Origin: Candidatus Eremiobacterota bacterium
GTDB lineage: Bacteria > Vulcanimicrobiota > CADAWZ01 > Ess09-12
Direction: 5' to 3'
DNA: 64,000 nt
Assembly (NCBI GenBank): GCA_031082125.1
Contig: JAVHLM010000027.1
Span: 1-64,000 of the forward strand
Part shown: piece by piece, positions 40,214 through 51,338 of the stretch
How the letters are laid out: each line of letters starts with the position of its first letter
How positions within the stretch are numbered: position 1 is the stretch's first letter
Position numbers and translations under genes: made by a program
Notes under the pieces: generated by a model
The model's input: the letters and a program-made list of their open reading frames with translations, nothing else
What the model was told of the DNA's origin: nothing
Database searches by the model: none

Positions 40214-40283
40214 GAGAGGAACTCAGATCCCGGCGCCCCCCTGCCTCCGAAGATAGTATACAGTAAATTTCCGGAAAAGTCCA
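40214..40283 (-). repeat. R1 dispersed repeat, copy B, with promoter
   Basis: Minus strand: TGGACT (40278-40283), 17-bp spacer, TATACT (40255-40260), then ATCTTCGGAGGCAGGGGGGC, GCCGGGATC and a purine/pyrimidine tail. It is the best match to copy A at 51290-51338. The promoter reads into the ankyrin lipoprotein. Confidence 0.85.
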
Positions 40284-40489
40284 AATAGTTCCTGGTGAAG
40301 AGCTGTGTAGGAGGCCGAAAATCTACGAAATTCAAGGAAGCGGGTCGTCAGTGCGAGGAAAAAGGCGGGAGCGAAACACCCCTGTCCTGTGCGCGCAGAG
40401 CCAGAGCCTATCAGCCCCTTTTGTCTTCAGTTGTGTCCCAAGAACAGATTGTGAGGAAATACTGCTGAACTGTTACATTCTCTCCCTAT

Positions 40490-48317: not shown

Positions 48318-50564
48318 TCAGCGGCCTCTCCCGCCGCGGGGGAAGATGATGGTGAGGCCGTGAGGAGCCGTGCCCCTGATGACAAGGTGGCCTTCGTGGA
48401 GGCACCGCAGGTGGTGGGCCCTGCAGAGGGTGATGAGATTGCTCTCGATGGTGGGGCCGCCGTGGGAGCGGTATCTGATATGATGGCCGTGGAGGTTGCG
48501 CCGGCAACGGCAGCCGGGAGCCTGGCACTGGTAGCGGTCCCTGGCAAGTACGCGGCTGTGGAGATTTCTTTTTTCGGGGTGGTCCCAGGCGGCGAGGAAA
48601 GTGTCGAGGAGGGCCTCGATGAAGAGGGCGAGGTCCTGCCCGCCATCAGTGGCTTCTTCCGTCCTGCCGGCTTCCCAGAGCCTCACGGCGTGGTTCCAGA
48701 GAGGGATGAGATCCCTTTTCAGGAAGAAGCGGATGAGGGCACCCCTGTCTGGAGGGTTTGATCCAAAGGTCCCCTCTTTTGAGGGCTCTCCCGAGAGGAT
48801 TGACAGGATCTCGGGGAGCTCGGGGTGCTCCCCGCCCCCGGTGACCTGCCAGATGACGGCGGGATTCTCCCCCCATGTAGACAATGAGCCTCCTTCCAAA
48901 GTTTTCTGCTGTGCACATTTTTGGACTGCGGTGTCCAAACCCATATCCCCATTGGGTTCCGTGCCATTTGATGCAGGAGCGTGGACCCTCTTGACGGACC
49001 TCCCCGTGACGGCCACCTCGAAGGCCTCGGGATGGATGTCCCACTTTTTATGGACCGCCCTCTTCGCGAAGCAGAGGAACGCCTCGACGGCCTGGATGAG
49101 AGTGGCCACCGGCACCTCCTGGGCGTAGGAGAGCCACGCCCCCTTGACGCGGGTCCCCTCGTTAAAGACCTTCGAGAGATGCCTCGCCTGCTCGGGGGTG
49201 AGCTTTCCCCCCTGCACAAGGTCGAGCATGTCGGGATACTCCAGATAACTCCTTTCCATTTTGATGAGGGAATAGGCGGTGCTGCGGGACATCCCCAGGC
49301 GCTCCCTGGTGTAATGCCCCAGGCTCAGGAAGAGCATATCTTTATAGAGGCCGAAATTGTTGAGGGTGCGAAGGAGCCTCCCCTGGTAGAAGGAGAGGGA
49401 GTGGCGCAGCGTCGCCATCTTCCGAAGCCGTGCGACCGTCTCGAAGGGATCGGCGGGAGGGCGCACCAGGGTGCCGTCAGGGGTGACGGCGGTATCGGCA
49501 TCAGACCTGTGGCTCCCTGGAAACTGAAACTCCGGGGGAAGCTCCACCGTGACGGGCTTCCAGGGGAGGAACTCCCAGAGGTGCGACACCTCTTCGAGAT
49601 CCCTGTGGACCTGGCGGGCAAGCTCTTTGTCCCGCTCGCCGAAGGGTGCCTCGTCATCGAGGGAGCCGATTAGCCCCGCCAGGGCGCCAAGGAGAAGAGC
49701 CTTCTCCTCGAAGGCGGGATCAGCGCCGGTCTCCCTTGTGCCGGAAGCATCAGAGTCGTCACGAGAGGGTGCCCCGAGCCCCTCGAGCGGCGCCGAAGCG
49801 ACAAACTCGCCGAGAAGGCCCTCCACGAACGACTCTGAAGGGAGTTCCGCCTCCTCCATCCTGTGGAAGACTTCAAGAGCCCTGTCCCATTTTGCCGCAA
49901 CAGCAAAAGGAACCCGCACGCCCACCGCGAGGCTTCTCTCCTCTTCGTCATCATTCCCGGCGACGAATGCGTTGATGCCGCTCCCCCCGGCGCCGCCTTC
50001 AACATCCCCCGAACCACCCCTTGTGCCGGCCTCCCCGGCACCTGATTTAAAACACTTCACCTCCTCTTCAAGTTCTCTCACGGTGCACTGCATGGCCCTG
50101 GAAAGCCACTCCGCCTCGGTCTCGGGCGCCACGACCTGGAAAAGATACCGCAGCGCGCTTTTGCGCAGAAGCCCCTGTTCAAGAGCCTCCCTGATGAGAG
50201 GGAACTTCTGAAGGGCCTTCGCGTTCCGCATCATCTCATAGCCGCTCCTGGAGGAGATACCCAGCTCTTCCCGCACAAAGTCGGAAACCCGCATATAGCC
50301 GAGCTTCTCGAGCTTCCCGTCAAGGGAGAGAAGGGCTTCCCCGATGAGGAGATCGAGTTTTGTGCCGGCGGAAGAGAGGCACCAGAGGTTCCAGTCCAGG
50401 ACCTCGCCTGTGAGATCGCGGAATATGTGGCGGCAGTTCGAGCGCGAGAGCACCTCGTCGGCGCCGTACGTGACCAGCGGGAGGCCCGGGGCAGCTTTGA
50501 AAACCTGCCCGCCCTCCATGGCGGCCTCGTAGCCGGGATACTCGCGGATCGCGCCGGTATTCAC
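48318..50564 (-). CDS. Large HNH-endonuclease-domain protein, paralog 2
   Basis: 748 residues with a GTG start at 50564 after AAAGGAGG. Same architecture as 20261-22588: two DUF222-like helical units (GYMRVSDFVREELGISSRSG, GHYTRERLGMSRSTAYSLIK) and a C-terminal HNH (CRCRRNLHGHHIRYRSHGGP, then SNLITLCRAHH). Between them lie a Gly-rich insert (residues ~170-195) and variable regions. HNH metal ligands are conserved. Function is unknown; such families are often amplified in genomes without clear phage or IS context. Confidence 0.82.
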   Translation of the reverse strand: MNTGAIREYPGYEAAMEGGQVFKAAPGLPLVTYGADEVLSRSNCRHIFRDLTGEVLDWNLWCLSSAGTKLDLLIGEALLSLDGKLEKLGYMRVSDFVREELGISSRSGYEMMRNAKALQKFPLIREALEQGLLRKSALRYLFQVVAPETEAEWLSRAMQCTVRELEEEVKCFKSGAGEAGTRGGSGDVEGGAGGSGINAFVAGNDDEEERSLAVGVRVPFAVAAKWDRALEVFHRMEEAELPSESFVEGLLGEFVASAPLEGLGAPSRDDSDASGTRETGADPAFEEKALLLGALAGLIGSLDDEAPFGERDKELARQVHRDLEEVSHLWEFLPWKPVTVELPPEFQFPGSHRSDADTAVTPDGTLVRPPADPFETVARLRKMATLRHSLSFYQGRLLRTLNNFGLYKDMLFLSLGHYTRERLGMSRSTAYSLIKMERSYLEYPDMLDLVQGGKLTPEQARHLSKVFNEGTRVKGAWLSYAQEVPVATLIQAVEAFLCFAKRAVHKKWDIHPEAFEVAVTGRSVKRVHAPASNGTEPNGDMGLDTAVQKCAQQKTLEGGSLSTWGENPAVIWQVTGGGEHPELPEILSILSGEPSKEGTFGSNPPDRGALIRFFLKRDLIPLWNHAVRLWEAGRTEEATDGGQDLALFIEALLDTFLAAWDHPEKRNLHSRVLARDRYQCQAPGCRCRRNLHGHHIRYRSHGGPTIESNLITLCRAHHLRCLHEGHLVIRGTAPHGLTIIFPRGGRGR

Positions 50565-50943: not shown

Positions 50944-50969
50944 ATGAGCATACCCAGGGGGCCTGTCCT

Positions 50970-51008
50970 CCCCTTGAAGGATCGGGGACAGGCCGATCCT
51001 TCAAGGGG
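50970..51008. repeat. 16-bp perfect hairpin with competing fold
   Basis: CCCCTTGAAGGATCGG (50970-50985), loop GGACAGG, CCGATCCTTCAAGGGG (50993-51008). The loop is complementary to CCTGTCC at 50962-50968, so an alternative stem is possible. No T-run follows. Confidence 0.85.
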
Positions 51009-51205
51009 AGCATCATTATACCTGCGCACCAAAGACCCCTGGCCGATTACTATTTCCTCGATGTTGTTCTCGGCGCAACTGGAGATATAAGGATCGGGGC
51101 TGATGGGCTCTGGTTCTGCGCATACAGCATCAGGGCTTTCAGCCTGATATCCCGCCCTTTTCTTCGCACTGACACACCGCTTCCCGGAGTTTTTCTTTGC
51201 CCCCC

Positions 51206-51271
51206 ATTCACCTCGATAGTTACAATGGATAGGCACTGACCTGCCCATCCATTGTAACTATCATTCACCTC
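51206..51271. mobile_element. 48-bp inverted-repeat element with 9-bp target duplication
   Basis: ATTCACCTC (51206-51214) directly abuts GATAGTTACAATGGAT (51215-51230). Its perfect reverse complement ATCCATTGTAACTATC (51247-51262) directly abuts a second ATTCACCTC (51263-51271). The inner 16 bp contain a 4-bp extension of the stem after one mismatch. It is a minimal transposon footprint with no coding content. Confidence 0.8.
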
Positions 51272-51289
51272 TTTCGTGGGGAAATTTTC

Positions 51290-51338
51290 TAGACTTTTCC
51301 GGAAATTTCTTGTATACTATCTTCGGAGGCCGGCGCAC
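51290..51338 (+). repeat. R1 dispersed repeat, copy A, with promoter
   Basis: TAGACT (51290-51295), 17-bp spacer, TATACT (51313-51318), then ATCTTCGGAGGCCGGCGC. It lies directly upstream of the membrane-protein gene, whose GGGAGGT and GTG follow at 51345-51356. Confidence 0.85.

Follow-up and report, generated by a model that had tools for sequence, protein, structure and literature searches.

The present study identifies a 48-bp palindrome, termed E48, that interrupts a promoter-bearing copy of the dispersed repeat R1 in the window (the whole 64,000-nucleotide stretch of DNA analyzed) and that, judging from the sequence, inserted there with duplication of the 9-mer ATTCACCTC. Four copies of E48 occur in the genome, and all of them face a predicted promoter at one distance and in one orientation. 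Our preferred reading, about evenly balanced between right and wrong in our judgment, is that E48 is a very small non-autonomous mobile palindrome acting as a portable upstream regulatory site.

E48 consists of two perfectly complementary 16-bp arms (51215-51230 and 51247-51262) with 16 bp between them, and the two copies of ATTCACCTC lie flush against its edges without any gap. In these respects the sequence-only reading, which had described the exact 9-bp repeat, the perfect inverted repeats, and their 16-bp middle, was confirmed. The longer stem that it proposed was also found: with one mismatch allowed, the arms reach 21 nt (95%) around a 6-nt loop and fill nearly all of the 48 bp. The folding energy of the hairpin was −20.2 kcal/mol, as compared with −5.8 kcal/mol for shuffled sequences (z = −7.4). 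Perfect arms of at least 13 bp were found 14 times in 881 kb of the genome, and E48 accounts for three of these. The termini are GATA and TATC, and the probability of an exact flush 9-mer duplication arising by chance is about 4^-9. Two known kinds of element were tried and rejected, namely an intrinsic terminator, since the T-run after the stem is missing at all three full copies, and an integron attC site, as inspection of the sequence placed the GTT and AAC boxes in reverse order. Rfam gave no match above the gathering score and three sub-threshold matches. A second strong hairpin lies 200 bp upstream, at window positions 50959-51010, where two overlapping inverted repeats (GGCCTGTCC / TCCCCTTGAAGGATCGG / GGACAGGCC / GATCCTTCAAGGGGAG) stand in the order A B A' B'; the genome holds no second copy of this hairpin.

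Homology to R1 is present on both sides of E48, placing E48 inside an R1 copy. The earlier description of E48 as lying 20 bp upstream of an R1 copy was therefore incomplete. Eleven aligned R1 paralogs lack E48; at the place where two copies of ATTCACCTC enclose E48 in the window, they carry a single 9-mer (e.g., TTTCACCGC or CTTCACCGC). A query built from the window flanks, with E48 removed and a single 9-mer kept, gave 31 matching places; two of these were the window's own flanks, and more than 10 of the others were near full length. Furthermore, local alignment to two paralogs improved when E48 and one 9-mer were deleted, the score rising from 89 to 126 with one and from 102 to 147 with the other. 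The empty paralogs with their single 9-mer thus show that E48 did insert in the window and that the 9-bp target duplication is genuine. The duplication itself is observed, whereas the 9-bp staggered cut that would have produced it is what we infer. R1 is about 130 to 200 bp long and precedes unrelated sequence; its −35, −10, and leader (GGAGGCCGGGGGGCGCCGGGATC...) are conserved, and it could be a mobile promoter. Coordinates of all features are collected in the table.

Table. Positions of E48, its target duplication, and associated features (window positions unless a contig or locus is named)
Feature	Location	Strand	Basis
E48 palindromic element, GATAGTTACAATGGAT-AGGCACTGACCTGCCC-ATCCATTGTAACTATC	51215-51262	+	sequence; identical copies in genome
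Left 9-bp target duplication copy, ATTCACCTC	51206-51214	+	sequence; one copy at matching place in empty R1 paralogs
Right 9-bp target duplication copy, ATTCACCTC	51263-51271	+	sequence; empty R1 paralogs
R1 copy, promoter-bearing, broken by E48 and one 9-mer	51143-51336	+	blastn matches to many genome copies, eleven aligned without E48
Further R1 copy in window	40240-40461	-	
R1 copies elsewhere	C14:49811; C8:221498 and 66434; C44 (five copies); C13:105195; C27:69025 and 85551; C21:89713		
Predicted sigma70-type promoter, TAGACT-17-TATACT	51290-51318	+	27 bp downstream of E48 edge; conserved across R1 copies
Predicted membrane protein gene, 378 aa	51356-52492	+	downstream of window promoter; no Pfam or NCBIfam match
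Identical E48 copy	C8:135927-135974		
Identical E48 copy	C54:15992-16039		
41-bp E48 copy, 7 bp missing at gene-distal end	C7:131183-131223		
HNH-endonuclease family members	window 48318-50564; L031:13190-15703; L029:6243-8660	-	

The search of the genome (7.43 Mb in 69 contigs, with 2 to 3% of the assembly missing) returned three identical 48-bp copies, in the window and in contigs C8 and C54, and one 41-bp copy in contig C7. The flanks of the four are unrelated to each other, and no diverged copies were found at E values up to 10. The sequence-only reading had called for further 48-bp copies with different 9-bp duplications; the copies are present, but those in C8 and C54 carry no duplication at all, the exact 9 bp being confined to the window copy. 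An exchange of flanks between copies was rejected as an explanation, as the 9-mers mismatched in the combinations compared by eye. Searches for empty sites of the C8, C54, and C7 copies returned only the loci themselves, apart from homology of the far left flank of the C54 copy to sequence preceding HNH genes; this homology breaks off about 50 bp short of E48. An adapter or assembly artifact was also rejected because the flanks are unrelated, the promoter spacing is obeyed, and the Tn5 mosaic end is absent. Beyond this genome, none of 148 other genomes in the phylum contained the core pattern of paired arms, a longer pattern was not found in GTDB contigs, nor a similar one in IMG/VR, and plasmids and phages gave only partial matches at chance level.

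The IS that had been predicted to share these ends was found neither in this genome nor in the others searched. The genome contains seven exact matches to the arm, every one of them an arm of E48; the IS256-type transposase domain PF00872 has no match there, and 97 relatives gave two single-arm matches with one mismatch, which is the chance level. In C7, a gene for an IS110-family transposase (L029:9725-11100), broken into two frames, starts about 90 bp from the 41-bp copy, on the side where the 7 bp are missing. This copy may have been the target of that transposase.

The promoter scan (8/12 or better over about 100 bp) gave the following best sites at the four loci. E48 is followed after 27 bp by TAGACT-17-TATACT in the window, TTGACA-17-TATAAT in C54, and TTGACA-17-TAAAAT in C7, and after 26 bp by TTGCCC-17-TATAAT in C8. 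The −35 hexamers of the window and C8 are weak. Corresponding distances from the E48 edge to the predicted −10 were 50, 50, 50, and 49 bp, respectively. Agreement of four offsets within 1 bp has a chance of about 3e-5 if offsets are uniform over 0 to 60 bp, for a rule that was noticed post hoc and in four copies. The asymmetric center of E48 has one orientation towards the gene at all four copies, which by itself has a 1 in 8 chance. In 881 kb of the genome, E48 was the only hairpin with arms of at least 10 bp found in the 130 bp preceding promoters that scored 10/12 or better. If the transcription start is set 7 nt after the −10, E48 would span about −63 to −110, with arm centers at about −70.5 and −102.5, i.e., 32 bp or three helical turns apart. 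The C54 promoter (L031:16090-16102) is a perfect TTGACA-17-TATAAT whose end lies 6 nt upstream of the antitoxin ATG, pointing to a leaderless antitoxin mRNA.

Three of the four E48 promoters lie at type II toxin-antitoxin genes. Downstream of E48, an RHH antitoxin precedes a PemK/MazF toxin in C54 and a MazF toxin in C7, whereas in C8 MazF lies before E48 and a PF09720 antitoxin after it; NCBIfam agrees with these assignments below its cut-offs. The C8 mazF ORF reaches into E48, where it ends (...AMKIVTMDRH*), and the joined flanks would read AAG TGA, so that the stop would probably fall at the same point even without E48. Since the 12 mazF genes in 7.43 Mb, taken as operons of about 0.8 kb, make up 0.13% of the genome by a hand estimate, chance does not explain why three of the four copies are found at them. 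HNH-endonuclease genes also lie near three E48 copies; this link is weaker because such genes are very numerous. Their family, of proteins of about 800 aa, is very large, with 123 matched stretches in this one genome. At the window copy, the predicted promoter precedes the gene of a predicted membrane protein, which bears out the earlier placement of the element in the control region of that gene. No relatives or orthologs of this protein were found in GTDB contigs at the sensitivity used.

Taken as a portable regulatory site, E48 would be moved by an enzyme acting in trans. In the window it inserted into the R1 copy, and a 9-bp staggered cut would account for the duplication of ATTCACCTC. At all four copies its gene-proximal edge lies 26 to 27 bp before the predicted −35, at about −63, in a fixed orientation. 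The two 16-bp arms, on one helical face, would then bind a putative regulator, which would touch RNA polymerase in class I geometry, at promoters that in three of four cases are those of toxin-antitoxin genes. At rrnB P1, the Fis sites are located near −71 and −102, and the similarity of these positions to the E48 arm centers is suggestive. E48 lies in helical phase upstream of its predicted promoters, as class I activator sites do. CRP bound at −61.5, −71.5/−72.5, or −81.5/−82.5 gives strong class I activation, which is lost at −66.5 and −76.5 (PMC6301791), and in E. coli mazEF a site for the activator Fis precedes the operator (PMC4803016). We favor the regulatory-site reading because the arm positions fit the CRP geometry and because of this Fis site, which like E48 lies upstream of a toxin-antitoxin operon. 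E48 differs from such activator sites in that it is an identical 48-bp block moved as a unit and the protein bound to it is putative. Counting against this reading are the number of copies, only four, the lack in C8 and C54 of the duplication that a plain DDE-type element should leave, the weak −35 hexamers of the window and C8, the post hoc recognition of the spacing rule, and the 1 in 8 chance of a shared orientation. The placement may result from promoter-directed insertion or from retention by selection; the data do not separate the two, and both may act.

The first of these could be the whole explanation, E48 itself being possibly functionless: an enzyme would insert it at a set distance upstream of promoter-bound RNA polymerase or of bent DNA there. 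We regard this as possible, though rather unlikely. The known copies all share a single distance and orientation, and none was found elsewhere, as expected of targeting and not of random insertion followed by selection; moreover, the E48 edge at about −63 falls where the footprint of RNA polymerase has its upstream limit. In contrast, E48 is missing from dozens of promoter-like sites (10/12 or better) in the 881 kb sampled, the preference for toxin-antitoxin genes is not a random choice of promoters, and the mobilizing enzyme for such insertion was not found. Earlier reports of promoter-phased insertion in bacteria were not found in the literature searched, coverage of which was incomplete. 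Yeast Ty3 inserts at a fixed distance at tRNA genes, and E48 resembles Ty3 and similar retroelements in its fixed distance upstream of transcription starts, although it is bacterial, 48 bp long, and found at sigma70-type promoters. A combined form would be a bacterial mobile palindrome that inserts upstream of RNA polymerase bound at a promoter, always at the same distance and with a preference for toxin-antitoxin genes, and thereby distributes a regulatory site through the genome; we entertain it with considerable doubt.

It is improbable that E48 is an ordinary MITE of an unseen DDE-transposase IS that makes 9-bp duplications, with the promoter spacing due to coincidence or intergenic bias. 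The terminal inverted repeats, the lack of coding capacity, the 9-bp duplication at the window copy, and the dispersed copies (three identical and one of 41 bp, all with unrelated flanks) speak for this reading. However, neither an autonomous IS sharing these ends nor, in the 148 other genomes, the paired arms could be found, two full copies stand without duplication, and the concordance of spacing would be left to chance. MITEs are usually larger than 48 bp, which also speaks against this assignment. In the neisserial Correia elements, promoters and an IHF site alter the neighboring genes (PMC10969869). E48 shares with such MITEs its non-coding nature, inverted-repeat ends, dispersal, positions upstream of genes, and, in the window, a duplication; it differs in its size, in having no parent IS found, in showing a duplication at one of three full copies, and in keeping one promoter distance at all four. 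Membership in MITEs or REPs is not established because only the window copy has the duplication and no transposase was identified. Of the earlier proposal of a transposon remnant or tiny MITE, the mobile-type insertion with its 9-bp duplication stood, in light of the empty R1 paralogs; the class assignment is not established.

A never-mobile conserved operator of a regulon, beside which the 9-bp repeat in the window is accidental, would account for the fixed spacing, the palindromic form, and the three functionally coherent targets, but we hold it to be very improbable: the empty R1 paralogs reveal E48 and one 9-mer as an extra block, the 9-mer is exact and flush, and 48/48 identity including the asymmetric center, with sharp boundaries, is unusual for operators. 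REP elements are small palindromes, mainly extragenic (PMC3733652), and are known as targets of IS (PMC1525189). E48 is likewise a short imperfect palindrome in mostly intergenic places, and an IS110-family gene adjoins the C7 copy; still, a REP-type palindrome moved by a tyrosine transposase (RAYT) is scarcely credible, as the Y1 transposase domain PF01797 had no match in the genome (2 to 3% of the assembly being missing), the GTAG (or CGTC) end tag, as defined in PMC3733652, is absent, the copies number only four and keep a fixed distance upstream of promoters, and the window copy has a 9-bp duplication.

If mobile as read here, E48 would be among the smallest bacterial mobile palindromes described, a claim that we make tentatively and jointly with that of fixed-distance targeting. 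If the spacing rule holds, E48 would be either an element of bacteria whose integration is guided by the promoter complex, for which no precedent was found, or the means by which a natural regulon was built through transposition of a ready-made upstream site. Furthermore, if the toxin-antitoxin link is true, several of these operons would be under common control from outside their own autoregulation.
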